DNA of 64,000 nucleotides from Psychrobacter fulvigenes (GTDB taxonomy: Bacteria > Pseudomonadota > Gammaproteobacteria > Pseudomonadales > Moraxellaceae), in the NCBI RefSeq assembly GCF_904846155.1, contig NZ_CAJGZP010000001.1, positions 2,046,001-2,110,000 of the forward strand, written 5' to 3'. Position 1 is the stretch's first letter. Every line of letters starts with the position of its first letter. The position numbers were made by a program, and so were the translations under genes. Below, in pieces: positions 6,002 through 19,864 of this stretch. The notes beneath the pieces are model-generated. The model was not told the origin of the DNA. It saw nothing but the letters and a program-made list of their open reading frames with translations, and ran no database searches.

Positions 6002-6554
6002 GGATAGCCCTAAAGCTTTACTTATACCATTTCTAAAAATCAGAGTAACGCGGAAAACTTATGCAAGTACTACTCCCAGTAGGCTTAGCAAGTTTGACAA
6101 CGTTAATCGCACTTTTTGGGTTTGGTATTAATACTCAGGATCAAAGCGCTTACTACTAAAGGGTTGTGCATCAATAAATAAGGGCTTACCATGAATCATC
6201 TCTTCAATGAGCCGTCCTGTTACAGGTCCGAGTGTCAGACCTTGATGAGCATGACCAAAAGCAAACCATAAGTTATCGTGTTGTGATGCAGGACCAATAA
6301 CGGGCTTCATATCAGGCATACAAGGTCTGGTACCACACCATGCTTCAGACTCTACAGCCGTTTCAAGCGGTATAACTTTTTTTGCATAAGTGAGTACTGT
6401 TTTTATCTGCTCGAAGTTTTTTGGCGCATCCAGTGTTGCCATTTCTGCCCCAGTAGTAACTCTGATACCCTGCTCCATAGTACCCATCACAAAGCCTTTC
6501 TCTACATCAAACAAGCTATGAGAAAATGAGTTTTTCTCCGTTATTTCAAAATGT

Positions 6555-7617
6555 GGTGTAATGGACAAAATTCATGCTAAAAAGTAGAAGGTAGTCGCTA
6601 ATGGACATAATTCATGCTATTTGCGTGACTTTGAGAGTAAAAAGTCTTTAATAAACCGTAACTTACGGTGCTCATTTAAGCCATGATGACTGTGTAATTG
6701 CCGCTTGAGCTCACTAAATAAACCTTCAAGCGTATTGGTTGTATTTGGTATATCTAAGTGCTCATATTCTTGATAAGTAAACAACCAATCACTGTTGGTT
6801 CGCAGGCTACGATAAGCACTTCTAAGACGCTTATGCGTGTACCAAGTTCTACCCGTATCCTCATTGGTACTACGTTCACTGAGATAGGCTTCGTAAGTCA
6901 GGTACCAGTGATCTAAGCACTTTATGAACGCGGCTTTATCAAGCTGTGTTAGGGTCAAAGTAAGCTGCCTAAGCTCAATGCTAGCGATATTCTTAGGGCG
7001 ACGAGTCAGGTAGCGAGTCACTATTTGTATCTGATGAAACTGGCACATCTGACAAGGAGTACTGGTAAATAGCGTTCTAAGTCCTCGTCTACCATCACAG
7101 GTGATGCTTTGTATATCAATGCCTAGCACCTTTAAGTAATCAACCCCTTGCTTATAGGCACTGTTGGTTTCATGACTGACTATAGCGTAATGGTGAACCA
7201 TTCTAGTGGCGTTGTCCATAAATACCATGAGACCAAACCCACGGCCAAAATAGGTCGTGTCCATGATGATATTAGCACGCTTAGGTCGTTTGATTTGGTA
7301 CTCAATACTCACTTTGTCTAAGCGTCTTTTGAATGGTTTTAAGACTACAGTGGTACTTGTCAGCCAGTTGTTTATACGTCTGTTTCCCTTGCGTATATTC
7401 AGTCCAAAGCATTTGGTTATTGAGCCTTGTGCCCCCTAAAAACCGCCGTTTGCAAGATAGGCATTGGTACTGTTGTTTGACTAGTTTGCGTCATTCTTTT
7501 TAGTGTGTTTATTACTACAAAAAGGGCAGTTTTTTGATTCATAGCGTTGATTCCTTGCAAATATAGACAGTATATAGCGTTAGACCCTACACCAGCATGA
7601 ATTTTGTCCATTACACC
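6555..7617 (-). mobile_element. IS256-superfamily insertion sequence, IS1249 type, 1,063 bp
   Basis: Perfect 24-bp terminal inverted repeats lie at 6555-6578 and 7594-7617 (outer end GGTGTAATGGACAAAA). They are flanked by an exact 8-bp target duplication, CAAAATGT, at 6547-6554 and 7618-7625. An additional internal copy of the left-end motif (TAATGGACATAATTCATGCT) lies at 6599-6618. The 8-bp duplication and the transposase fit the IS256/IS1249 group. Confidence 0.93.
6617..7542 (-). pseudogene. IS1249-type transposase with frame disruptions
   Basis: From ATG 7542 (RBS AAGGA) the protein must be read in several frames: a zinc ribbon NCPFCSNKHTKKND, then QQYQCLSCKRRF and a helix-turn-helix-like KQTYKQLADKYHCSLKTIQK, then the catalytic part from about 7312 with MDTTYFGRG (first Asp), CDGRRGLRTLF (second Asp), CQFHQIQIVTRYLTRRP, RTWYTHKRLRSAYRSL and TTNTLEGLFSELKRQL (Glu). 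These are the IS1249 signature blocks. The frame changes fall at short A runs near 7530, 7485 and 7325. Either the copy is dead or these are assembly indels, since the terminal repeats and target duplication are pristine. Confidence 0.8.
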
Positions 7618-8552
7618 CAAAATGTTGATGATAGCCACGCATAGGAAACAAAGGAATATTGTAGCCCAGCGGCTTGATTAAATCAGCTGACCATGGGCCT
7701 GCCGCAACAACGACATCCTGACATGAGTAACTTTGATCCTCGGTCACAACTTGCCAACCACTCTCTGTCTGTATTATGTCTTTTACGCTTGACTGCTTTA
7801 TATCTCCCGCCATTTCTTCAAAGCTTTTTACATATGCTTTTACAAGCCCACCAGGATCTTTCACTTGCCAAGAATTTTTCCAGTGGATGCCGCCGATATA
7901 GTCGGTAAAGTTTACATTTGGCTCTAATTCTTTTAAATCTGCTAGCGATAGCACCTGATACTCTACTCCTTGATCGGCCGCTTTTGGTGCTTTATTAATG
8001 GCTTTTTCAAAACTACTGGATTTACGATGAAGCTCAATCCAGCCTACTTTACTGACCAGCTCATTAGCGCCTGAGGCTCTAATCATAGAATCATGCTCAT
8101 TTGTGCAGTGCTCAATAAGAGTAGCCCACTCTTTATCGATTGCTTCGACCTTTTTTATACTAGAATTCGCCCAGTACTGCAATAAAGGACGCTGAAGACC
8201 ATATATAGCCGACCAACGATAGCGAATATCCGTACTTTTATTCGGTAATACTCTGAATATCTCTTTAAAACTTCTAGGAAAAGGTTTGGTATTTACCGCT
8301 TCTCTAGTAATGATACCTGCATTACCATATGAAGTTTCTTCTCCGGGTGGTTTTTTATCTAACAGAAGAACTTGAGAGTTATTCTGTTGTAGGTGCCAGG
8401 CTATAGAGGTGCCCACTATGCCTGCACCGATAACAATCACATCATAGCGCATACTCATACTCTCAGATAACAAGCTGGTTTTATTAATCTAACTTCACCA
8501 CTTTAAAAAGGTCTGTCTTAAGATCAATCAACTGATTATGAGTGAATCCTTA

Positions 8553-9578
8553 TCACTCAACAAACCGACCCAAACCTTCTTTCTGCGCTGTTTGAGCGAC
8601 CTTTAAGGCGACTGCTGCATCAAAGCTTGCTGCTCCAACTGACTTAAACAACGTAATGCCCTTATCTTGACTTAAATCGATACTAATCTTCTTATTCACC
8701 AAATCATTCAACGTACCCGTTAGCTGATCCCATGTCCAAGTACTGTTAATATCATCATGAGCTTGTATCAAGTCCCCCGCCTCGTGTAAGCCACCTTCAG
8801 CATCATCGATAATGACAGAGGTGCTGGCCTCTATAACAGAGTTGCTAACTTCCTTCATGGTGGGTTGATAAGCGCCAACCGCATTAATGTGAGCATCTGG
8901 CTTTATTTGCGCGGCTTCGAACAATCCTTTGGTTGCTCTTGTAGCAAGATTAATAATATCTGCGTCTTTGATAGCACGCTCGATATTTTCATAGACCTCA
9001 AAGTCAACTTGCCACTGTGGGTATTCTTGTTTAAATTTCTCCTGAAACTCATGTGCCGTCTCAGTGGTTCTATTCCAAAGGTTAACCTGTTTGATATTTG
9101 GACGTACAGTGAGTATGGCATTGAGCTGCTCATACGCCATCCCTCCTGTTCCTATTACAGCCACTGCACTACTGGCTGGGTTCGCTAGATACTTAGTAGC
9201 TATCCCAGATAGTGCTGCTGTTCGTACTTGGGTGATATATACCCCATCCAAAAATGCGAGCATCTCTCCTGTCTTATTATCTGATACAGTGATTGTTGCC
9301 ATGGTTGTTGGCTTATTGCGCTTGGGATTGTCTGGACAGATAGTAACCAGCTTCACAACTGCATACTCGTTATCACCGTCGAACACTACTGAAGGCATTG
9401 ATAAATGCGAGCCTGATGTATTCTTATTACTGTCTTCAAAAGTAGGAATAACTAGGCGCTCAGGTGTCTTAATCCATGTTGGATGCTCGCCTTGAGTTTT
9501 GAGTAAATCTTCAATAGCACTGATTGCCATTGGCATCGTAAGCTGTTTTTTTACGGTATTAATATCTAAAATCTGCAT
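8553..9578 (-). CDS. Ornithine cyclodeaminase/mu-crystallin family protein, probable ketimine reductase
   Basis: A 341-residue protein with the family fold: an N-terminal substrate domain with the Lys-containing AVVKLVTICPDNP (about 73-85) and a Rossmann domain with AVIGTGGMAYEQLNAI (about 138-153), followed by VNLWNRT and INAVGAYQPTMKE. Family members are either ornithine cyclodeaminases or NAD(P)H-dependent reductases of cyclic ketimines such as delta1-piperideine-2-carboxylate and delta1-pyrroline-2-carboxylate. Next to pipecolate and aminoadipate enzymes, reduction of delta1-piperideine-2-carboxylate to L-pipecolate is the best guess, filling the role that DpkA plays in Pseudomonas putida. 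It follows an intergenic gap of 141 bp and precedes the broken DadA-like gene by 100 bp, same strand. Substrate is inferred, family is certain. Confidence 0.8.
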   Translation of the reverse strand: MQILDINTVKKQLTMPMAISAIEDLLKTQGEHPTWIKTPERLVIPTFEDSNKNTSGSHLSMPSVVFDGDNEYAVVKLVTICPDNPKRNKPTTMATITVSDNKTGEMLAFLDGVYITQVRTAALSGIATKYLANPASSAVAVIGTGGMAYEQLNAILTVRPNIKQVNLWNRTTETAHEFQEKFKQEYPQWQVDFEVYENIERAIKDADIINLATRATKGLFEAAQIKPDAHINAVGAYQPTMKEVSNSVIEASTSVIIDDAEGGLHEAGDLIQAHDDINSTWTWDQLTGTLNDLVNKKISIDLSQDKGITLFKSVGAASFDAAVALKVAQTAQKEGLGRFVE

Positions 9579-9719
9579 AATTACCCCTAAAGTTGCCTGT
9601 CATTTTATTATTACGGTGCGATAAAGCTAAAGCATAAAGATCTAACCATCAATCAACCAAAGGTGAGTACAAGACGGCATAACCCTTAAAAATTAAGCAT
9701 ATTGAATACATAATCCTTT

Positions 9720-11150
9720 TTATTGAATATCAAAAATCTTGCCACGATTCATAATATTGTTCGGATCAAACACCTGCTTAATTTGCTTAAGATACTCAAT
9801 CTCAGTCTCACTGCGGCTATAATTGAGATAGGGCTTTTTAGTCATACCCACACCATGCTCAGCAGAGACTGAGCCGCCATACTTTTGCACCGTCTCAAAC
9901 ACCTGTTTATTCACTACCTGACAAGCGGCAAAAAAGTCATCCTTGCTTAAAGTTTCAGGCTTAAGTATGTTTAGATGCAAGTTACCATCACCGATATGAC
10001 CGAACCAGCACACTTCAAAGTCAGGATAGTTGCTACTGACAATGTGGTCAATCTCTTCGATAAAGTCAGGTACATGGCTTATCAGTACTGATACATCGTT
10101 TTTATACGGGGTAAAGACTGAGATGGTCTCAGAGATATATTCTCGTAGCTTCCACAGCTCTTCTGCTTGCGTCAGACTCTGACTCATCACCCCATCGACC
10201 ACCCAGCCTTGCTCCATACAATGCTCAAAGATGGCCATGGCTTTATCCATGATGGGCTCATACGGCGCTTCAAACTCTAGTAAGGTATAAAACTTGGTGC
10301 GTGATTCAAACGGCTCTTGAACTTGACCATGCGCCATCAGCTTATCAACTGCCACATCATCAAAGAATTCAAAAGCGGTCAGGTCAATCTTCGCTTGAAA
10401 GGCAGACAGCACATTCATGACATCACTAAAGTTATCCATACCGAGGACCATGACGTTTAAGTCTTGGGGCTGACGCTCAAGCTTGATCTGAGCATGAGTA
10501 ACAAATCCAAGCGTGCCCTCAGAACCAATGAATAGCTGACGTAAGTCGTAGCCAGTGGCGTTTTTGATCATACCGCGATTCAGATGCAGAATATCACCTT
10601 TACCAGTGACCACTGTCAGCCCCATGATCCATTGACGGGTCATGCCATAGCGTATGACTTTGATGCCGCCGGCATTGGTACCGATATTGCCGCCCATTTG
10701 ACTAGAGCCAGCAGAAGCAAAGTCGACAGGATAGTAGAGGTCTTTTGACTCAGCGAACTCTTGCAGCTGCTGAGTGATGACGCCGGCTTCAATCTCAACC
10801 ATGCGGTCAGCAGGATAAAACTGCCCGATATGATTCATTTTATCCATACTGACGACAATCTCACCGTTAGACGCGACTGCGCCTGCAGACAGACCGGTAC
10901 GACCGCCACTTGGGGTTAAAACCACGTTGTGCTCATTGGCAAGGAGGACAATCGCTTGCACTTGCTCGGTGGTCTTTGGAAAGATAATGGCAGACGCAGC
11001 AGGAGCGAAGTGCTTGGTCCAGTCTTTGCCCCAGTGCTCTAGGCTCTCAGCATCAGTTTTGATTTGGCTGGGGTCAAGTTGATGATCCTGTTGCAGCGTA
11101 TGCAAAACTGTATCGATAGATATCTGTAAGGGTTTGATAAGATCATTCAC
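9720..11150 (-). CDS. FAD-linked oxidase, probable D-2-hydroxyglutarate dehydrogenase
   Basis: A 476-residue VAO-type flavoprotein. The FAD-binding domain has TPSGGRTGLSAGAV (about 78-91), GGNIGTNAGGIKVIRYG and ATGYDLRQLFIGSEGTLG; the C-terminal cap has CWFGHIGDGNLHLNI (metal/substrate histidines) and VSAEHGVGMTKKPYL. This pattern is shared by GlcD, D-lactate and D-2-hydroxyglutarate dehydrogenases. Because the cluster also encodes an HglS-type enzyme that makes D-2-hydroxyglutarate from 2-oxoadipate, oxidation of D-2-hydroxyglutarate to 2-oxoglutarate is the most economical role; in P. putida an unrelated-length YdiJ enzyme does this. D-lactate cannot be excluded from sequence alone. The gene has its own 181-bp upstream gap containing a 9-bp tandem repeat. 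Confidence 0.8.
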   Translation of the reverse strand: MNDLIKPLQISIDTVLHTLQQDHQLDPSQIKTDAESLEHWGKDWTKHFAPAASAIIFPKTTEQVQAIVLLANEHNVVLTPSGGRTGLSAGAVASNGEIVVSMDKMNHIGQFYPADRMVEIEAGVITQQLQEFAESKDLYYPVDFASAGSSQMGGNIGTNAGGIKVIRYGMTRQWIMGLTVVTGKGDILHLNRGMIKNATGYDLRQLFIGSEGTLGFVTHAQIKLERQPQDLNVMVLGMDNFSDVMNVLSAFQAKIDLTAFEFFDDVAVDKLMAHGQVQEPFESRTKFYTLLEFEAPYEPIMDKAMAIFEHCMEQGWVVDGVMSQSLTQAEELWKLREYISETISVFTPYKNDVSVLISHVPDFIEEIDHIVSSNYPDFEVCWFGHIGDGNLHLNILKPETLSKDDFFAACQVVNKQVFETVQKYGGSVSAEHGVGMTKKPYLNYSRSETEIEYLKQIKQVFDPNNIMNRGKIFDIQ

Positions 11151-11281
11151 TGAATATATCCCTTAGCATAATGAATAAAGAAAAAAAACAAGCCTAACTA
11201 TTGCCTAATATGACCATATTGGTTTTTATATCAGTAATAATATATGCGGCTTGTCATCAAATGGAAGGTTAAATTATCTGA

Positions 11282-11335
11282 TTACACTATTTACACTATT
11301 TACACTATTTACACTATTTACACTATCTACACTAT
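11282..11335. repeat. 9-bp tandem repeat, six units
   Basis: Five exact units of TTACACTAT followed by one CTACACTAT, head to tail, in the gap between the two flavoprotein genes. The last unit overlaps the stop codon of the upstream minus-strand gene (11332-11334). There is no spacer, so it is not a CRISPR array; copy-number slippage is likely. Confidence 0.95.
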
Positions 11336-12618
11336 CTGATAATCTTAAGACATTGACCAGCATGGTATAAGGTCAGACCAAGCTCAGTAAATCCAGATTT
11401 TATCCCTCCAAAAGAGACTTTCGCCTCCTCTAAAGTCTTAAAGGGTAAGGGAATACTGTCTCTATTACCCGTCATTATATACTCTGCAAAGCACTTACCC
11501 ATTAGCGTGCCTGTGGTAATACCGCGTCCGTTATAAGCCGTTGCTGTCAGCAAACCCTCATCAGGCTCCATCACTCGAAAGATATGGTCTTGCGTAAAAC
11601 CAAAGCTACCACACCACTCATATTGCCAATTAAATGCTGGCAAATCTGGATAATAGCTTTTTTGTACAGCATTGGCCCACGACTGATAAAAGGATTTTGG
11701 TTTAAGCTGCGTACCACCAACCGTTCCCAATAATAAGCGATCATCGTCATCGCGGCGAAAGCTAGATAAGGCCAAGCGCGTGTCCCATGCACCTGTTCTA
11801 TACGGCAAAATACGATCTGCCGCCTCTCCACTGAGCGGCTCAGACGCAATCTGATAGTAATAGACCAGATAAAACGTCTTGGCAATTTCTGTCCATTCGC
11901 CTTCGGTATAAGCGTTGGTAGCAATAATGACGCGCTCAGACTTTACGCGGGCTTTAGCAGTCCTTGTGTACCAATGGCCATCTACTTTCTCTAATGCTTC
12001 AACAGCTGAATGCTCGTAGATAGTGACTCCAAGATCTGTCGCTACTTTGGCAAGTCCTCTGACATAAGCCAATGGATTGATGGTGCCAGCACGGTGATCT
12101 AGCAGTGCCTTATTGATGCTTGTGGTACCACAATACTCATGGCATTTGCTTCCAGTTAATACCTCAACATTTGCACCGCGACGGCTAAGCTGCTCGTATC
12201 TGATATCGACATCGACTTCGCCTTTGGCATTATGTGCCATATGGATATTGCCAGCACGCGTCGCTTGCGCATCAATGTTGTAGCGTTCAATCAAATCAAA
12301 TACTAGGCTTGGTGCTTGTCCAAGCGCTTCAGTCAGACGCTCACCTGCTGCCTCGCCTAGAGCAATATTCAAATCATCAGGGCGCGCCCATGTTCCTGCA
12401 TTGACTAGCCCGACGCTTTTACCTGAACCGCCACTACCAATCGTTTGGCTCTCTAATACGATAACTTGGACGCCTTTTTCGGCCAGATGAATCGCAGCCG
12501 ACAACCCTGTATAACCTCCACCTATGATGCAGATAGTCGCTTCAGTATCACTACTCATCTGGCTGTAAGTATCAATAAGGGGCGCAGTCATATTCCATAA
12601 ACACTGCTCTTGCAACAT
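11332..12618 (-). CDS. amaA: FAD-dependent amino acid oxidase, probable L-pipecolate oxidase (AmaA)
   Basis: A 428-residue DAO-fold flavoprotein. The N-terminus MLQEQCLWNMTAP followed by the FAD motif ICIIGGGYTGLSAAIHLAEKG resembles the AmaA/PuuB group rather than DadA. Further marks are GSGGSGKSVGLVNAGTW, RVIIATNAYTEG and a C-terminal TATAYNGRGITTGTLMGK. AmaA oxidises L-pipecolate to delta1-piperideine-6-carboxylate, which opens to 2-aminoadipate semialdehyde; the ALDH7 gene three positions upstream would take that product. The start ATG 12618 lies 15 bp downstream of the transporter stop, so it is translated from the same transcript. gamma-Glutamylputrescine oxidase or sarcosine-type activity is the alternative; no putrescine genes are nearby. 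Confidence 0.72.
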   Translation of the reverse strand: MLQEQCLWNMTAPLIDTYSQMSSDTEATICIIGGGYTGLSAAIHLAEKGVQVIVLESQTIGSGGSGKSVGLVNAGTWARPDDLNIALGEAAGERLTEALGQAPSLVFDLIERYNIDAQATRAGNIHMAHNAKGEVDVDIRYEQLSRRGANVEVLTGSKCHEYCGTTSINKALLDHRAGTINPLAYVRGLAKVATDLGVTIYEHSAVEALEKVDGHWYTRTAKARVKSERVIIATNAYTEGEWTEIAKTFYLVYYYQIASEPLSGEAADRILPYRTGAWDTRLALSSFRRDDDDRLLLGTVGGTQLKPKSFYQSWANAVQKSYYPDLPAFNWQYEWCGSFGFTQDHIFRVMEPDEGLLTATAYNGRGITTGTLMGKCFAEYIMTGNRDSIPLPFKTLEEAKVSFGGIKSGFTELGLTLYHAGQCLKIIR

Positions 12619-12633
12619 CTCATACTCCCTTTA

Positions 12634-14090
12634 TCACACTTCACTGATTGAAGAAGTCGTATCGAGCTTTTCTACAGATGGCTCTTCACGTGGTATAAAT
12701 TTATCAAGGAACGCCCATAGCAACCCAAATAGAGGCGACAACCAACAGGCAAAAGCAAAGGGTGCATAAGTCAGCGTTGCTATACCCAATGTGGCGGCGA
12801 CAAAGCTACCACCCATATTCCATGGGATAAGCGGTGATAACAACGTACCAGCATCTTCGATCGAGCGAGTCAACGTCGTGCGCTTATAGCCCATTTCTTT
12901 ATATTTATCTTGTAATAAACGACCTGGTAGAACACAAGTGGTATAAACGTCACCGATGAGTGTACCAACACTCAGGACACTGCCGTATGTCGTAAAAATC
13001 AACCCTAAGCGTGATCTCACAAAGCGATTAATCTTGGCCATGATGGCTTTGAGGGTACCGTAATGCTCAAGTGCACCGATAAATCCCAAGGCGAAGATGG
13101 TCAAGCTAATGACCCATGTCATTGACATCACACCGCCTTTTGACAGTAATTGATCAACAACCTCAAAACCCGTCTCACTGACAAAACCATTTTGTAAAAC
13201 ATTGAAAACATCACTAACACCAACACCCTGCAAAAAGACTGCAATCACAGAGCCTACAAAAACGCCACTTAATACCGTCGGTATCGCTGGCATTTTCATA
13301 ACCGCTGCTGCTACAACGACAACAGCAGGTAGTAAGGTAATAATACTCAGGTTGTAGTTAGCAGCTAAACTGTCTTGTAGCGCTTGGATAGAAGACAAAT
13401 CAATACTATCATCGCCATAGCCCATACCAATCCAAGCATAGATAGCTAAGGCTGTAATCATCGCTGGGACAGTCGTCGGCAACATGCCCTTGATATGATC
13501 CCAAAGCTCAACACCCGCAGCCGCAGGAGTCAGGTTAGTGGTGTCTGATAATGGTGACATTTTGTCTCCAAAAAAAGCACCTGAGACAATAGCGCCACCA
13601 GTAAAATGCGCCGGGATACCAAGCCCCATTCCAATACCCATCATTGCCAACCCTACGGTACCGACCGTACCCCACGAGGTACCAGTGGCGACAGAAATGA
13701 TGGCACATATTGCACAAACAGAGACTAAGAAAGTGGAAGGAGAAAATATACTAAAACCATAATATAGGATGGTCGGGACTGACCCTGCGATAATCCACGC
13801 ACCAATGAGCATACCCACACCCATCAGAATAATCATCGCTGGTAAACCAATTTTGATTACCTTTAAAAACGCTCCTCCATACCTTGCCAGCCACGGCCAC
13901 GCATCTTCATAAATAAGCCAGTGATCAAGATGCCACAAGCTAATGGGATGTGAGGGGTAAAGTCTTTAAATACGAAGAACTGCACCATGAGAATCATGGC
14001 AGTCAATACTAGAGGGGCAATATCAAGTAAGAAGCTAGAAGATGGACCATAGCCATCATTAGCAGGGTCGTGCGGTTTATCATCAATCAT
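12634..14090 (-). pseudogene. NhaC-family Na+/H+ antiporter-like transporter with a single frameshift
   Basis: Two overlapping frames make one NhaC-type carrier of about 485 residues. The N-terminal frame from ATG 14090 (RBS AAGGAAGG) ends with GRGWQGMEERF at about 13863. The C-terminal frame enters with GAFLKVIKIGLPAMIILMGV and continues through the family block GAFFGDKMSPLSDTTNL to 12634. Restoring one G in the GGAGGAGCG stretch near 13875 yields GMEEAFLKV and rejoins them. More than ten hydrophobic segments are visible. It lies between the ALDH7 and pipecolate-oxidase genes, so it may carry a substrate of the pathway; an intact relative (56648-58054) lies in the tyrosine cluster. Frameshift could be real or a sequencing error. 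Confidence 0.85.
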
Positions 14091-14281
14091 GATAGTTCTA
14101 CCTTCCTTAGTAGTAATCAATAGTCATCGCAACCTAATCCGTAGTTGCTTATTACTTGTAAAAATTAAAGCAATTTTTGCGGCTGCTAAGCATATTCCAC
14201 CTATACTTGGCAGCCTACAATTCATTCAAGCCATTCAAATAAATCAATATTTAAGAAAACAAAGAGACATATTGCCTTGTA

Positions 14282-15772
14282 CTAACCGAAACTAATACCT
14301 TGCGCCAGTGGTAGCTCTTTTGAGTAGTTGATGGTATTGGTTTGACGGCGCATATAGACTTTCCAAGCATCCGATCCTGACTCACGACCACCGCCTGTTT
14401 CTTTTTCACCCCCAAACGCACCACCAATCTCAGCGCCACTGGTGCCAATATTGACGTTAGCTATCCCGCAATCACTACCGCGATCGCTTAGGAAGGTTTC
14501 AGCCTCACGCAGATCATTAGTAAATACACATGATGATAAGCCTTGTGGTACATCATTTTGCATCTCAATTGCTTCATCGAACTCTTTGTAAGTCATGACA
14601 TATAGGATAGGCGCAAAGGTCTCACTTCTGGCAACGTCATTTTGCTCATCAAACTCGACAATGGCAGGCGTCACATAATAGGCATTTGGATACTTATCTT
14701 CGAGTACACGCTCGCCGCCTGTGACTGTACCGCCTGCTTCTCTCGCCTTTTTCAAGGTTTCTTGCATATTATTGAAGCTGTCTTCATCGATAAGCGGACC
14801 TACCAGATTGCCCTCTAGTGGATGGCCAATGCTGACGGTCTCATAAGCGGATTTGATGCGTGGCAAGATATCTTCTTTGATAGACTCATGCACGAATAGA
14901 CGGCGTAATGTGGTGCAACGCTGACCTGCGGTACCGACTGCTGAGAACAAAATTCCACGTAACGCAAGATCCAGATCAGCACTTGGCGCCAAGATCATGG
15001 CATTATTACCACCAAGCTCAAGCAAGCTCTTACCAAAACGATTCGCCACTTTTGGTCCTACTTCTCTACCCATACGGGTACTGCCCGTCGCACTAACTAA
15101 GGCAACATCTTTATTTTCAACCAAGGCGTTACCGACATCTGTCTTACCCAGTAGTACTTGAGATAGATGCTCTGGCGCATCACCAAACTTAGCTAAGGCT
15201 TTTTCAAACATTGCTTGACACGCCAAAGCAACCAAAGGGGCTTTTTCTGAGGGTTTCCAAACGACAGGGTTACCACAGACGATAGCAAGCGCTGTGTTCC
15301 ATGACCATACAGCGACTGGGAAGTTAAAGGCGGAGATCACCCCAATCACACCAAGCGGATGCCATGTCTCACGCATGTGGTGACCTGGGCGTTCTGATGC
15401 GATCGTTAGACCATATAGCTGGCGTGAAACGCCGACAGCGAAGTCGCAGATGTCAATCATTTCTTGTACTTCACCTAGGCCTTCCTCTTTAATCTTGCCA
15501 GCCTCAAATGACACTAGCATGCCTAAGTCTTCTTTATGCTCACGCAGCACTTCACCGAGCAAGCGAATTAGCTCACCACGTCTTGGAGCAGGAACGATAC
15601 GCCACTCTTTGAATGCTTTTTTGGCATTGGCAATCTTAGTATCGACATCATCAACACTGTCCAAGGTAATCTTGCCAATAACAGAGCCATCAATAGGGCT
15701 GTTCACTTCAAAGTCGCCATTTTGGTATTGTTCTTCTTTGACACCCATAGCGGACATATACTGCTTAATCAT
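14282..15772 (-). CDS. amaB: Aldehyde dehydrogenase, ALDH7 type (2-aminoadipate semialdehyde dehydrogenase)
   Basis: About 496 residues, cytosolic, NAD(P)-dependent. The catalytic Glu lies in LLELGGNNAMIL (about 265) and the nucleophile Cys in GTAGQRCTTLRRL (about 300); the TTLRR continuation and AFNFPVAVWSWN distinguish the ALDH7/antiquitin group from betaine or succinate semialdehyde dehydrogenases. The C-terminus contains GAFGGEKETGGGRESGSDAW, also ALDH7-like. It oxidises 2-aminoadipate 6-semialdehyde, in equilibrium with delta1-piperideine-6-carboxylate, to 2-aminoadipate. ATG 15772 with upstream AGGGATTGATT is preferred to the TTG at 15778. It sits between the transporter and hglS. Confidence 0.88.
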   Translation of the reverse strand: MIKQYMSAMGVKEEQYQNGDFEVNSPIDGSVIGKITLDSVDDVDTKIANAKKAFKEWRIVPAPRRGELIRLLGEVLREHKEDLGMLVSFEAGKIKEEGLGEVQEMIDICDFAVGVSRQLYGLTIASERPGHHMRETWHPLGVIGVISAFNFPVAVWSWNTALAIVCGNPVVWKPSEKAPLVALACQAMFEKALAKFGDAPEHLSQVLLGKTDVGNALVENKDVALVSATGSTRMGREVGPKVANRFGKSLLELGGNNAMILAPSADLDLALRGILFSAVGTAGQRCTTLRRLFVHESIKEDILPRIKSAYETVSIGHPLEGNLVGPLIDEDSFNNMQETLKKAREAGGTVTGGERVLEDKYPNAYYVTPAIVEFDEQNDVARSETFAPILYVMTYKEFDEAIEMQNDVPQGLSSCVFTNDLREAETFLSDRGSDCGIANVNIGTSGAEIGGAFGGEKETGGGRESGSDAWKVYMRRQTNTINYSKELPLAQGISFG

Positions 15773-15864
15773 AATCAATCCCTTTATGTTGGTTAATACT
15801 TCCTTGAAAGACTTATTAACTTACCTTGCAACAAGCTAAGTTGCAAAATAATTAATTTCTTACT

Positions 15865-15885
15865 GTCATTCCTTTTTGGAATGAC
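15865..15885. other. Short perfect hairpin upstream of the ALDH7 gene
   Basis: GTCATTCC and GGAATGAC (8-bp arms, 5-nt T loop) lie in the gap between hglS and the ALDH7 gene. It lacks a T tail, so it may be an mRNA processing or attenuation structure. A related CATTCCTTTTT stretch occurs at 18808-18819. Confidence 0.5.
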
Positions 15886-15931
15886 GCGCAAATAATTCGC
15901 TTATCAATATGCATTTTTAGGCACTGCTACT

Positions 15932-17380
15932 CTAAGCATGGTTATTTAATCTCATCAGACACGCTTTAAGACTCTGCGCTTGTATTGTTTGATATAGCTC
16001 AAGCTCGTCGTGAACACGTGCACCCAATGCGCTCTCAAACTCCTGTTGGTTTGAGTTGCCCTCATAACTGCTTTGCTTGGTGTCATGCAGATTGGACTGA
16101 AAAATTCCTGCGGCACTCACTGGCAAAAAGTCCTCGTAAACAATAGGCTCAACCCTGATAACACCTTGCTCAATCAAATCAGCCATGGCTTGCTTTGATA
16201 TAAAGCTATTCGAGCTACTTGATTCTGAAGCGTTTACGCCTAGCTCAGAATCAGCACTGCTCATATCTGCGCTACTATCACTGGTTTGATAGTAAAAATA
16301 AGCCAACCCTTCATCATGTAGCGTTTGATAGTCATCGGGGAACGCTTCAAATGCACTCTCTAAAATTTGATAATACTTTGCAGCATTGTCTGCATTCGGA
16401 GTCACGCCCAACTGATTGCGAGCTTGACTAAGCAATTTGTCATACAACTCTCTACCTTTGGGGGTTAAAGCCACCCCGCGCTGCTCAATCTCACCAAACC
16501 GTGCAGTATGATGACCCGTTTCATAGCCACCTTCTGAGTTTTTAAAACTAACCGCCTCTTCTAATGCTTTAAAGCTCGTTTGTCGTAATAAAATCGGACA
16601 CTCTCGTCTGGGAGGCCCTTCTATGATCGCTTTTGGCGGAATACCTTTTGCCTGCATACCTGCCTGTACCGCATCTATATCCAAGGTTCTAGGGGTCAAG
16701 TGATTGATATGAGGCCCTTTAAAACCAACGACGTCAGCGATTAGTCCATGCTGCGATAATAGTCGTTGATATAGCGCTTTTGAGACTGGAGTCTTATCAT
16801 GCCAGCGAAAGGTTTCTAGCGCTTCTTTGACGAACTGCCTTGCATCATCAGCCGTTAGACCCCCCTGCTCCTCAAAGCGTTCAATCAGGCTGACCACATT
16901 ACCAGTAAAGATATTGCGATTATTCAGAGCTGCTATCGCTTCTTGCTTTAGCGCTTCATCACCAATCAAATCTAAACGCAAGAGAGAGGTAAACACGCGA
17001 AATGGGCTGTTATTTAATGATTGGCTATCAATCGCTCTAAAAGCAGTAGAGTGCACAGGCACAGCGGCTGGTGCCAAATCATAATAGCCAACAGGATGCA
17101 TGCCCATCACAGCAAAAAGCCTACGCATCATACTAAGCTCAGCAGCTGTCCCCAACCTAATTGCACCATGGCGCTCCATATTGAGTCTATCAATCTCTCC
17201 GGTGTGCTCAAGTTGCTGTCTAATCTCAGGCTGCTTGTTTAACACCTCTGTATTTACTTCAGTCACTAATTCAATGAGGTCACCATATAGCGGTACTTCT
17301 TTTTGGTACATCTCTGACATTGCAATAGAGAAATCATGGCGAATATCATCGCTATTTATAAATGTATTTTTCACAGGCAT
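15932..17380 (-). CDS. hglS: 2-oxoadipate dioxygenase/decarboxylase (HglS, DUF1338)
   Basis: A 482-residue protein of the DUF1338 family, shown in Pseudomonas putida to convert 2-oxoadipate to D-2-hydroxyglutarate with O2 and loss of CO2 using non-haem iron. Conserved elements are MERHGAIRLGT (His71 and Arg75, matching the iron-binding His and substrate Arg), GFKGPHINHLTPRTLDID (His224/His227) and RFGEIEQRGVAL (Glu297 or 299). An uncommon Ser/Asp-rich insertion (about residues 372-395) precedes the C-terminal SKQAMADLIEQG and lengthens it slightly. RBS AAGGA precedes ATG 17380. Its neighbours supply the substrate (aminotransferase) and may consume the product (FAD-linked oxidase). Confidence 0.9.
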   Translation of the reverse strand: MPVKNTFINSDDIRHDFSIAMSEMYQKEVPLYGDLIELVTEVNTEVLNKQPEIRQQLEHTGEIDRLNMERHGAIRLGTAAELSMMRRLFAVMGMHPVGYYDLAPAAVPVHSTAFRAIDSQSLNNSPFRVFTSLLRLDLIGDEALKQEAIAALNNRNIFTGNVVSLIERFEEQGGLTADDARQFVKEALETFRWHDKTPVSKALYQRLLSQHGLIADVVGFKGPHINHLTPRTLDIDAVQAGMQAKGIPPKAIIEGPPRRECPILLRQTSFKALEEAVSFKNSEGGYETGHHTARFGEIEQRGVALTPKGRELYDKLLSQARNQLGVTPNADNAAKYYQILESAFEAFPDDYQTLHDEGLAYFYYQTSDSSADMSSADSELGVNASESSSSNSFISKQAMADLIEQGVIRVEPIVYEDFLPVSAAGIFQSNLHDTKQSSYEGNSNQQEFESALGARVHDELELYQTIQAQSLKACLMRLNNHA

Positions 17381-17453
17381 TTATCCTTTTTAATTAATAT
17401 TTTTTAGGTAAGTAAGGTTGGGGAAGTAATCATAGTAATATCGCAAGTCATAG

Positions 17454-18731
17454 CTATGACTGTGGCGCTTCATTAGGGATAGCAGCGAGCACTTCTTTTA
17501 AAATATCGAGTCCAGCTGTTAGCGTCTCAGGCTCAATCGTCAGCGGTGGTAATAGGCGAATAATATGTCGATGCTTACCACTTGGCATGAGTAGCAATCC
17601 CCGCTCTCGTGCTTGCTTTAACACATAAGACATGATGCTTGGGTGCGTGCCATAAGCAGGATGACGCAGCTCGATACCGCGCATAGCACCTACTCCTGTG
17701 AGTCCATGCAGCCATGGAGAGACTCCTTGCTGCTGCCAATCACTCACTGTATCTTCGATGGTCTTTGCATAATGCTTGGCAGACTGCCACACCTCATCTT
17801 CTTGCATGATATCTATAGTGGCGTTCGCTGCGGCACACGCCACTGGATTACCTGAATAAGTACCGCCCAAACTCCCTTTTGGCAGACCGTTCATAACACT
17901 AGCCTTGCCTATTACCGCACCCAATGGCAGGCCTCCTGCGATGCTTTTACCCAGCAATATCATGTCAGGCTCAATCCCTAAATGCGTAAAGGCAAAAGGT
18001 GTACCCGTACGACCGTATCCTGATTGAATCTCATCCATAATGAGCAAAATGCCATGCTCATCACAAAAGGCGCGCAGATATTGGGCAAACGTCGCTGACA
18101 TTAACTGAAAGCCACCCTCTCCTTGTACTGGCTCCATGATAATGGCACCGATGTTATCGACATCCGTCTCCACAGCAAATAGACGCTCTAAAGCGTCGAT
18201 AGCCTGCTGATCACTAATATCACTGTCGGGACTGGGGAAAGGAATATGGTAAACGCCGCCCGCTAAAGGCCCTAGCCCTCGTTTATAAGGAGCGACCTTA
18301 CCATTTAGATTAACCGCTGCAAGCGTACGCCCATGAAAGCCACCATCAAAAGCGATGACACCAGTACGACCTGTCTTCATGCGAGCGATTTTTATGGCGT
18401 TTTCGGTGGCTTCTGCACCGCAGTTGGTCAGCATGCCTGCAAGCTCACCTTGGATAGGAATGAGCTCGCACAATCTTGGCATGAAGGTTTGGTACGGCAT
18501 ATGAGCAGCCGCGTTGTAAGCATAATGAATAAGCAACTGTGCTTGAGTGATGATCGCGCTGACGATGCGCGGATGACAATGACCAAAGTTCAGCACACCA
18601 ATACCACCGACGAAATCAACGTAGCAGCGGTCTTTATCATCCCAAACTTTTGCATTGACACCTTTCGTTAAAGTCACTGGATGCACCATCGTAAAAGCAT
18701 CGGTGACATTGTATAGCTGATCCATGAGCAT
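17454..18731 (-). CDS. Class III aminotransferase, probable 2-aminoadipate transaminase
   Basis: A 425-residue PLP enzyme of fold type I, class III. Visible are NCGAEATENAIKIAR (phosphate-binding region, about 105-119), FDGGFHGRTLA, IMEPVQGEGGF, MDEIQSGYGRTG (PLP Asp, about 240) and LLGKSIAGGLPLGA (Schiff-base Lys, about 270). It resembles GabT-type 4-aminobutyrate/5-aminovalerate transaminases, a family that also includes the P. putida enzyme that transaminates 2-aminoadipate to 2-oxoadipate. Being directly upstream of hglS (73 bp) supports the 2-aminoadipate role; the family call is firm, the substrate is inferred. RBS GGAAGA precedes ATG 18731. Confidence 0.82.
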   Translation of the reverse strand: MLMDQLYNVTDAFTMVHPVTLTKGVNAKVWDDKDRCYVDFVGGIGVLNFGHCHPRIVSAIITQAQLLIHYAYNAAAHMPYQTFMPRLCELIPIQGELAGMLTNCGAEATENAIKIARMKTGRTGVIAFDGGFHGRTLAAVNLNGKVAPYKRGLGPLAGGVYHIPFPSPDSDISDQQAIDALERLFAVETDVDNIGAIIMEPVQGEGGFQLMSATFAQYLRAFCDEHGILLIMDEIQSGYGRTGTPFAFTHLGIEPDMILLGKSIAGGLPLGAVIGKASVMNGLPKGSLGGTYSGNPVACAAANATIDIMQEDEVWQSAKHYAKTIEDTVSDWQQQGVSPWLHGLTGVGAMRGIELRHPAYGTHPSIMSYVLKQARERGLLLMPSGKHRHIIRLLPPLTIEPETLTAGLDILKEVLAAIPNEAPQS

Positions 18732-18826
18732 TTCTCATCTTCCTTGAGTTAGACCTTCATTTCAGCAAAACCCCGTGTTATCAGCAAACGAATAATAGTT
18801 GTGACGCCATTCCTTTTTGTCATTGC

Positions 18827-18850
18827 AAAAAAAACCAGCATATAGCTGGC
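18827..18850 (-). terminator. Rho-independent terminator downstream of the LysR gene
   Basis: On the minus strand CCAGC-tatat-GCTGG is followed by eight T residues. It separates the LysR gene from the catabolic genes, which therefore need their own promoter in 18732-18826. Confidence 0.85.
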
Positions 18851-18934
18851 TCGTTTGTGTCTCTATTAGCAGGGCTTTCTACGCTTATCGCTAGTCAAAA
18901 GGTGAAAGTAGGTTTTATGGTTGAAAATATAAAA

Positions 18935-19864
18935 TCATAGAACGTGTTCATTTGATTCTTCTAGATAATTCGAGACCCATTCCAAAATAACCTTGACCTT
19001 ATGTGAGCTACCCATAGATAAAGGGTAAGACATGTAATAAGAACCCCTGCCTTTGGCAGCATAGCTCCATGCTGTCACCAGTGCGCCCGACTGCAACTCT
19101 GGCGCAACTAAACGTAGTGGCACTAATGCGATACCATATCCCTGTAAAGCAGCAGAAATAGTAGTATGAAAAGTATCAAAGCGTGGGCCCACAAAGGTTG
19201 CATCCATACTGATGTCTTGCTGCCTAAAATACTCATACCAAGCACTTGGCCGCGAGCTAAGTTGTAATAGCGTGCAGTTATCTATGTTGTTTGTGCATGG
19301 TGCTTTGTCTGTTAAATATTCAGGATGACAGACAGCCACACTATACTCATCAAACAACTTAATCGCCTCCATGCCAGCCCATATTCCATCACCATATAAA
19401 AAGGCGACATCGACATTTTGATCCTCAGAAAAAAATGGCCCAGCCAACTCTTTGATATTTAAATTAATCAACGGATGTGCTTGGCTAAACCCACTTAATG
19501 CAGGTATCAACCAACGAGAGCAAAAAGTTGGGTGCGAGACGACCTTAAGCACCTCTGAGTTGTCACTATTTGACATCAAGCTGGTAGTCGCTGCTTCTAT
19601 ATGTTTAAGAATGTCTAATACTTCAAGATAATAAGTCTTACCAGCTGGCGTTAAGGATATTCGATGCGGTGTACGATAAAATAGTGAGAGATTTAACATC
19701 TCCTCGAGCTGAGCGACTTGTTTACTAACAGCACTTTGAGTCATATGCATCTCTTGAGCTGCATTGGTAAAACTTAAGTGCCTAGCAGCCGTCTCAAAAC
19801 ACTGCAAAGCAGTTGTCGAAGGATATCTTCTAAAAGCAAGGGAGGTTTTTATTTTATTGTTCAT
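18935..19864 (-). CDS. LysR-family transcriptional regulator (GcvA-like)
   Basis: A 309-residue regulator. The winged helix-turn-helix (about residues 14-75) reads LQCFETAARHLSFTNAAQEM, then HMTQSAVSKQVAQLEEMLN, LFYRTPHRISLTPAG. The effector domain follows with FGPRFDTFHTT-like and GYGIALVPLRL blocks. It lies upstream of and on the same strand as the lysine/pipecolate catabolic genes, with a terminator between, so it is the likely activator of that cluster; its inducer is not deducible. The 323-bp gap upstream (19865-20187) holds a bidirectional terminator and no gene. Confidence 0.88.
   Translation of the reverse strand: MNNKIKTSLAFRRYPSTTALQCFETAARHLSFTNAAQEMHMTQSAVSKQVAQLEEMLNLSLFYRTPHRISLTPAGKTYYLEVLDILKHIEAATTSLMSNSDNSEVLKVVSHPTFCSRWLIPALSGFSQAHPLINLNIKELAGPFFSEDQNVDVAFLYGDGIWAGMEAIKLFDEYSVAVCHPEYLTDKAPCTNNIDNCTLLQLSSRPSAWYEYFRQQDISMDATFVGPRFDTFHTTISAALQGYGIALVPLRLVAPELQSGALVTAWSYAAKGRGSYYMSYPLSMGSSHKVKVILEWVSNYLEESNEHVL

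Follow-up and report, generated by a model that had tools for sequence, protein, structure and literature searches.

A putative operon for growth on D-lysine and/or pipecolate through the aminoadipate route in Psychrobacter fulvigenes

Nine minus-strand genes of Psychrobacter fulvigenes raise the question whether a single operon can encode the aminoadipate route from D-lysine or pipecolate to 2-oxoglutarate, and which enzymes take its ketimine step and its last oxidation. They lie in the window analysed here, a stretch of 64,000 nucleotides (C1:2046001-2110000) of the 3.47-Mb genome, in the order LysR-family regulator, class III transaminase, HglS, aldehyde dehydrogenase (ALDH) of family ALDH7, NhaC-type carrier, L-pipecolate oxidase AmaA, GlcD/D2HGDH-type flavoprotein, ornithine cyclodeaminase (OCD)-family protein and D-amino-acid dehydrogenase dependent on flavin adenine dinucleotide (FAD). 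Judged from sequence, the cluster is probably a Psychrobacter operon that serves growth on D-lysine and/or pipecolate via the aminoadipate route. An earlier note on this DNA had described contiguous gene families of the route on one strand, as the nine genes in order bear out. Its pathway reading holds and has gained strength from the active-site residues of the D-2-hydroxyglutarate dehydrogenase (D2HGDH), the near-copy of this enzyme beside serA, the AmaD-like dehydrogenase and the recurrence of the operon in the genus. As a working gene set the interval 6128..19864 needs amending, since the text of the note did not mention that the ninth gene, for the dehydrogenase, is split by an insertion and that the NhaC gene is frame-broken. 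Its statement that the family assignments are firm applies to the five proteins above curated cut-offs and, at superfamily level only, to the OCD-family protein, the flavoprotein and the regulator.

Gene content and predicted route

In profile searches, five of the nine proteins exceeded curated NCBIfam cut-offs (Table 1), and those for AmaA, AmaB, aminoadipate transaminase and HglS were all among them. The LysR protein, the GlcD-like flavoprotein, the OCD-family protein and the dehydrogenase scored below every NCBIfam cut-off; for these four the superfamily is firm and the function predicted. The HglS of the window and that of Psychrobacter sp. APC 3426, a close relative, share 96% identity. 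In an alignment with HglS of Pseudomonas putida, its Arg75 pairs with Arg74 and its Val421-Ser422 with Val402-Ser403, and the specificity arginine is kept. Intergenic gaps across the nine genes measure 15-203 bp when the NhaC gene is taken from the ATG of its N-terminal frame. A terminator-like hairpin (18852-18832) sits between the regulator and transaminase genes, and a promoter scan gave nothing usable (18 sites against 31 expected).

In the proposed route, the substrate would be taken up by the NhaC-type carrier, and D-lysine or D-pipecolate would be converted to piperideine-2-carboxylate by the AmaD-like dehydrogenase, as its homology suggests. The OCD-family protein may then reduce piperideine-2-carboxylate to L-pipecolate. 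AmaA and ALDH7, both firm at family level, would carry L-pipecolate to 2-aminoadipate, which the transaminase would convert to 2-oxoadipate and HglS further to D-2-hydroxyglutarate (D-2-HG). The final oxidation to 2-oxoglutarate would fall to D2HGDH, a prediction backed by its residues and the serA-linked near-copy. With the gene for the first enzyme interrupted by an insertion sequence and that for the carrier frame-broken, at most the steps from piperideine-2-carboxylate or L-pipecolate onward would be expected to work in this strain, unless paralogues substitute.

The six intact dehydrogenases of such operons (415-426 aa, 74-90% identical to one another) share 41-43% identity with an AmaD-like gene of P. 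putida and 21-23% with the organism's own DadA, and are closer to AmaD than to DadA. In P. putida this gene is flanked by genes of an ATP-binding cassette (ABC) carrier and has a PF02615 gene and a class I/II aminotransferase gene nearby, and it is because of these neighbours that we take it as AmaD. An excerpt of PMC6034422 gives PP3596 as the enzyme converting D-lysine to piperideine-2-carboxylate. A second Psychrobacter type of dehydrogenase is 60-66% identical to the operon enzymes (60-62% for the paralogue in P. fulvigenes itself). This paralogue adjoins an agmatinase-family gene and a gene for 5-guanidino-2-oxopentanoate decarboxylase (821.9 bits against a cut-off of 500), a setting that suggests D-arginine. 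The probable D-arginine locus (L114:2599-8336) comprises the AmaD-like dehydrogenase, a PF01042 (RidA-family) protein, a LysR regulator, the agmatinase-family protein and the decarboxylase. Given the neighbours of the AmaD-like gene and the D-arginine-like locus of the second type, the subfamily probably handles basic D-amino acids.

For the ketimine step, a profile search returned no match to PF02615, the DpkA family, in the P. fulvigenes genome; the same search found matches in four of 14 control genomes, and the model also detects the gene of P. putida 31303 (351.6 against 38.8). Among solved structures, the OCD-family protein matched best an uncharacterised protein (139 bits), followed by pyrroline-2-carboxylate reductase (128) and mu-crystallins (110 and 109), with lysine cyclodeaminases at 73.6-73.8 and ornithine cyclodeaminase at 46 bits. 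Where OCD-like proteins from P. putida and one Psychrobacter carry the motif GGDCPGKTE, which we take to be the site of the catalytic aspartate of cyclodeaminases, the window protein has GAYQPTMKE, and A236-Y237-Q238 are constant across ten aligned orthologues and paralogues. With the cyclodeaminase motif gone, a ketimine reductase fits best, though unproven. The protein resembles the ketimine reductases of the OCD superfamily (mu-crystallin, LhpI, pyrroline-2-carboxylate reductases) in superfamily, best named solved matches and lack of this motif, and differs from them in scoring below the LhpI and PRK06141 cut-offs. Its predicted structure, with a mean predicted local distance difference test (pLDDT) score of 36.6, was not used. 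The genome holds a second OCD-family gene (60% identical; L113:7646-8674) with an in-frame TAG; the other OCD matches of 59-63% identity that were listed have no inner stop.

Aligned with human D2HGDH, the window flavoprotein is identical in seven of nine active-site residues (R386, K401, H434, H441, N443, E475, H476) and conservatively altered in two (T390S, Y432F). According to the part of PMC7801405 consulted, Lys401 and Asn443 are replaced in GlcD and, yeast DLD2 and DLD3 excepted, in D-lactate enzymes; both are retained here. The protein is 96% identical to the copy beside serA in its own genome. Such serA-linked copies occur in 12 of the 13 genomes examined, P. putida included, with none seen in Oligella, and an excerpt of PMC8651671 counts SerA among the commonest neighbours of d2hgdh. 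The retained D-2-HG residues and the serA-linked near-copy make the flavoprotein very probably a D-2-HG dehydrogenase. A reading as D-lactate or glycolate oxidase is disfavoured by the active-site residues and the serA link. The enzyme is like the bacterial SerA-coupled D2HGDH in its 96% identity to the serA-linked copy and in its active-site residues, and unlike it in its catabolic-operon setting, its own N-terminus and its GTG start. PF02913 has five matches in the genome, with frames of 401-585 aa: the window copy, the serA-linked copy, a copy, interrupted by an IS3-type element, at a second HglS locus, a GlcD-like gene that differs at the Lys401 and Asn443 positions, and a 585-aa frame. 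None of these is of YdiJ size, and the window flavoprotein (476 aa) is set apart from YdiJ, a fused protein of about 1,000 aa.

Occurrence in Psychrobacter and relation to Pseudomonas and rhizobia

Among the best 80 of 300 HglS relatives, 29 were from Psychrobacter, one from Oligella and 50 from other organisms. HglS adjoins ALDH in 27 of these 29 Psychrobacter loci; the remaining two, like the Oligella locus, are mini-clusters of LysR, transaminase, HglS and D2HGDH. Across the genus, HglS was found in 51 of 105 genomes. All nine genes occur in five other genomes (P. fozii, G083, G019, G026 and APC 3426), the APC 3426 operon being spread over two contigs with D2HGDH visible at its two ends only. 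Shorter versions lack D2HGDH (P. faecalis, where the OCD-dehydrogenase pair directly follows AmaA), D2HGDH and the dehydrogenase (P. celer), or the dehydrogenase (P. piscatorii, G056, G089 and G114). The OCD gene is present at at least 79% identity in eight of the 105 genomes and at 67-72% in 14. In all eight of the former class it follows AmaA or D2HGDH, and in five of the 11 examined from the latter (G056, G019, G089, G114 and G026) it lies within the operon. By gene content and order, the cluster is an operon recurring in the genus. Among the titles and abstract beginnings listed in our literature search (20 of 33 and 12 of 106 matches in two cases), whose collection lacks most subscription papers, none described this operon, and no paper in that collection treated Psychrobacter and pipecolate together.

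Two modules can be told apart. In G096, one contig carries LysR-ALDH-NhaC-AmaA-OCD and stops there, and a second one has LysR-transaminase-HglS-D2HGDH with a carrier gene running divergently. The second HglS locus of P. fulvigenes (L011:6058-13249; G000:C1:1952057-1959248) has the same plan, LysR-transaminase-HglS-D2HGDH with a carrier gene whose product matches DctA/GltP models below their cut-offs. The separation in G096 and the like plan of this locus suggest that the operon is a fusion of a 2-aminoadipate module (LysR-transaminase-HglS-D2HGDH) with a pipecolate module (LysR-ALDH-NhaC-AmaA-OCD, with or without the dehydrogenase), joined in most Psychrobacter loci examined. At the second locus, the 3' piece of the D2HGDH gene has 95% DNA identity to the serA-linked copy of P. 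faecalis and 85% to the serA copy of its own genome.

P. putida has a D-lysine/L-pipecolate/2-aminoadipate route (AmaD, DpkA, AmaA, AmaB, transaminase, HglS, D-2-HG dehydrogenase), and from piperideine-2-carboxylate onward the chemistry is shared, in the window by gene content. The AmaD-like dehydrogenase is common to both. The Psychrobacter operon differs in having an OCD-family instead of a DpkA-family reductase and an NhaC-type instead of an ABC carrier, in holding a serA-type D2HGDH and in uniting nearly everything in one operon. Compared with five Pseudomonas loci (L045, L051, L058, L067, L084), the identities are 50-51% for AmaA, 72-73% for AmaB, 56-58% for HglS and 44-47% for the neighbouring LysR. 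The earlier note called the P. putida genes scattered, which is half right: in strain 31303 a D2HGDH relative lies apart beside serA (L127) and the other genes form two separate groups, yet one of these unites AmaA, ALDH, LysR and HglS (L045) and the other the AmaD-like gene, the ABC-carrier genes, the PF02615 gene and the class I/II aminotransferase gene (L195).

The note had further proposed an OCD-type protein in place of DpkA and a GlcD/D2HGDH-type flavoprotein in place of YdiJ. The former substitution remains plausible, with no PF02615 gene found, the cyclodeaminase motif gone and pyrroline-2-carboxylate reductase and mu-crystallins as nearest named solved relatives, but the gene is not dedicated to the route, as its orthologues lie outside the cluster in six genomes. 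As to the latter, P. putida is said to use YdiJ for the D-2-HG step and the type does differ, but it is not exotic: P. putida 31303 has a serA-linked D2HGDH (68%) besides a 1010-aa YdiJ-sized match. Moreover, among the 50 HglS loci from outside Psychrobacter and Oligella, a flavoprotein of 472-500 aa adjoins HglS in 20 (rhizobial, L048-L090), and a YdiJ-sized one of 1008-1099 aa follows ALDH in six (also rhizobial); a further large flavoprotein, a 935-aa frame on the opposite strand, was seen in L078. The short rhizobial proteins are 26-30% identical to the window D2HGDH and keep Asn443 but not Lys401 in the alignment. The enzyme swaps in the operon thus have precedents and involve known enzyme types. 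The absence of a lysine racemase, also claimed in the note, stands as a partial result: none was seen in the two of six PF01168 matches of the genome that were scanned. One of these is Alr (312.2 against 168), with 113 against 434 on an NCBIfam subfamily that presumably holds the broad-spectrum racemases, and the other reached no family at E 1e-20.

Broken genes and alternative readings

The cluster is damaged in this strain and need not work as drawn. A complete insertion sequence with perfect 24-bp terminal inverted repeats, flanked on both sides by an 8-bp direct repeat, divides the dehydrogenase gene into two pieces (Table 1), so that its reading frame is not intact. The transposase frame is of the IS256 type (288.3 bits against 150 for the Zn-variant model). 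It lacks the first 81 model positions and is preceded by open stretches in other frames, for which reason this copy of the element may not be active. The element contains a third, isolated copy of its terminal repeat, with two mismatches, at 6598-6618. In APC 3426 the dehydrogenase is whole (424 aa) and 97.6-99.3% identical to the two pieces; since the gene is whole there and DNA identity to that strain is 97.3% on either side of the insertion point, the insertion is, by this comparison, recent. The NhaC frame breaks near 13863, with an N-terminal part at 13863-14123 and a C-terminal part at 12634-13965 (stop-to-stop bounds in different frames). The carrier is intact in APC 3426 (487 residues), and the break could be a sequencing error.

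Table 1 Features of the cluster, numbered from the first position of the window (scores in bits against NCBIfam cut-offs)
Feature	Position	Strand	Remark
LysR-family regulator, first gene	18935..19864	-	GcvA-like, under cut-off
2-aminoadipate transaminase (class III)	17454..18731	-	727.9 against 650
HglS, 2-oxoadipate dioxygenase/decarboxylase	15932..17380	-	722.2 against 550
AmaB-type piperidine-6-carboxylate (2-aminoadipate semialdehyde) dehydrogenase, ALDH7	14282..15778	-	pip_6_carb_DH, 825.2 against 730
NhaC/ArcD-type transporter gene, frame-broken	12634..14123	-	NhaC, 425.5 against 370
AmaA, L-pipecolate oxidase	11332..12618	-	694.5 against 600
D-2-hydroxyglutarate dehydrogenase (very probable), GlcD/D2HGDH type	9720..11150	-	96% to serA-linked copy of same genome
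OCD/mu-crystallin-family protein, probable piperideine-2-carboxylate (ketimine) reductase	8553..9578	-	superfamily match
AmaD-like FAD D-amino-acid dehydrogenase, 5' part	7618..8473	-	split gene
AmaD-like FAD D-amino-acid dehydrogenase, 3' part	6128..6554	-	split gene
Insertion sequence	6555..7617	-	IS256-type Zn-binding-variant transposase open reading frame 6617-7312; perfect 24-bp terminal inverted repeats
8-bp target-site duplication, copy 1, CAAAATGT	6547..6554	.	
8-bp target-site duplication, copy 2, CAAAATGT	7618..7625	.	

Several observations weigh against an operon for D-lysine and/or pipecolate. Two of the nine genes are broken in this strain, and no lysine racemase was seen in the partial check given above. 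D2HGDH lies below every curated cut-off, and so does the OCD-family protein (150.4 of 400 for LhpI, 224.6 of 322 for PRK06141). The OCD gene is not shown in 23 of the 27 Psychrobacter HglS-ALDH loci (the four with it are L013, L015, L016 and L024). Three of the 23 end at contig ends (L012, L019, L033), and L012 resumes on another contig with OCD and dehydrogenase. In six of the 11 genomes examined from the 67-72% class the OCD orthologue (67-71% identical) lies away from all other cluster genes, with a relative of the branched-chain amino-acid carrier PF05525 upstream in five of the six and not in the sixth. The transaminase does not adjoin HglS in L016, L017, L018 and L041.

These gaps in the distribution also feed a rather unlikely alternative, namely that the core (LysR to AmaA plus D2HGDH) serves L-pipecolate and 2-aminoadipate only, and that the OCD-family protein and the dehydrogenase form a separate inversion pair for D-amino acids or cyclic imino acids (e.g. 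D-proline, D-arginine) which lies downstream by chance. D-Arginine is inverted by such a pair of dehydrogenases, DauA/DauB. Of the 23 loci without OCD, the 20 that are uncut lack both genes, OCD orthologues are found outside the cluster, and the dehydrogenase paralogue of P. fulvigenes lies in an arginine-like locus. However, five other genomes have the pair behind AmaA-D2HGDH in this order, P. faecalis has it directly 3' of AmaA, and the pair would be expected to yield L-pipecolate, on which AmaA, encoded in the same operon, acts. It is improbable that the locus is a decaying remnant that does not work in this strain. The insertion in the dehydrogenase, the frame break in NhaC, the IS3-split D2HGDH of the second HglS locus and the stop codon in the second OCD gene would fit decay, whereas six genes (transaminase, HglS, ALDH, AmaA, D2HGDH and OCD) have full-length frames, intact paralogues of the dehydrogenase and of D2HGDH exist in the genome, the flanking identity to APC 3426 marks the insertion as recent, and the NhaC break could be an artefact of sequencing.

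That the OCD-family protein is a lysine or ornithine cyclodeaminase forming L-pipecolate directly from L-lysine is highly improbable: lysine cyclodeaminases belong to the same superfamily and do match it, but they and ornithine cyclodeaminase are outscored by pyrroline-2-carboxylate reductase and the mu-crystallins, and the catalytic motif is replaced by one whose AYQ is constant in the ten aligned sequences. A hydroxyproline route was considered, as the pathways described in PMC4113996 include both the OCD and the D-amino-acid oxidase family, so far as an excerpt of it tells. It is disfavoured by the ALDH, which scores 95 bits over the piperidine-6-carboxylate cut-off, and by the lack of a hydroxyproline epimerase or deaminase among the nine cluster genes, to which the search for these enzymes was confined.

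The operon D2HGDH and its serA-linked copy

A tree was calculated from 18 D2HGDH coding sequences, leaving out the 3' piece of the second-locus copy of P. fulvigenes, the APC 3426 fragments and copies of at most 38% identity. The window D2HGDH pairs with the serA copy of its own genome (99/100), as does the operon copy of P. piscatorii (97/100), whereas that of P. fozii does not and groups with two mini-cluster copies (92/98, a branch not starred). A single origin of the whole gene in full-size operons was rejected: the approximately unbiased (AU) test excluded a clade uniting the copies of the window, of P. piscatorii and of P. fozii (p 2.9e-6), and likewise a single clade with two Psychrobacter mini-cluster copies added (p 4.8e-66).

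All six operon or mini-cluster copies checked have a GTG start, preceded by a similar upstream stretch that is missing from the serA copies; the similarity of this stretch is lowest in P. piscatorii. In APC 3426, the contigs of both D2HGDH copies stop at codon 67 and resume at codon 434, as expected if the assembler collapsed an identical middle of the two genes. Because of this start with its upstream stretch and the contig pattern in APC 3426, the operon copies look overwritten by the serA-linked gene, which we read as gene conversion; repeated recruitment is the alternative. The N-terminal residues help less. Of its first 25 residues, the window protein shares 7-9 with the remaining operon or mini-cluster copies (23 with that of APC 3426) and 5-6 with five serA copies; for P. 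fozii the figures are 6-8 against 2-3, while P. piscatorii shows no difference (6-10 against 7-8).

A wider proposal, which we hold tentatively and as somewhat doubtful, is that two fused modules gave a single-operon route from D-lysine to 2-oxoglutarate whose D2HGDH time and again takes over the sequence of the housekeeping serA-linked copy through gene conversion, so that one co-evolving enzyme would serve serine synthesis and lysine breakdown for the same by-product. If so, the last enzyme of the operon would not be free to diverge, and the locus would offer a case for gene conversion between a biosynthetic and a catabolic enzyme. More generally, terminal oxidation and ketimine reduction appear as interchangeable slots of the route: HglS has a serA-type D2HGDH as neighbour in some Psychrobacter and in Oligella, and a flavoprotein of 472-500 aa or a YdiJ-sized protein in rhizobia. 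This may help to annotate lysine catabolism outside Pseudomonas.

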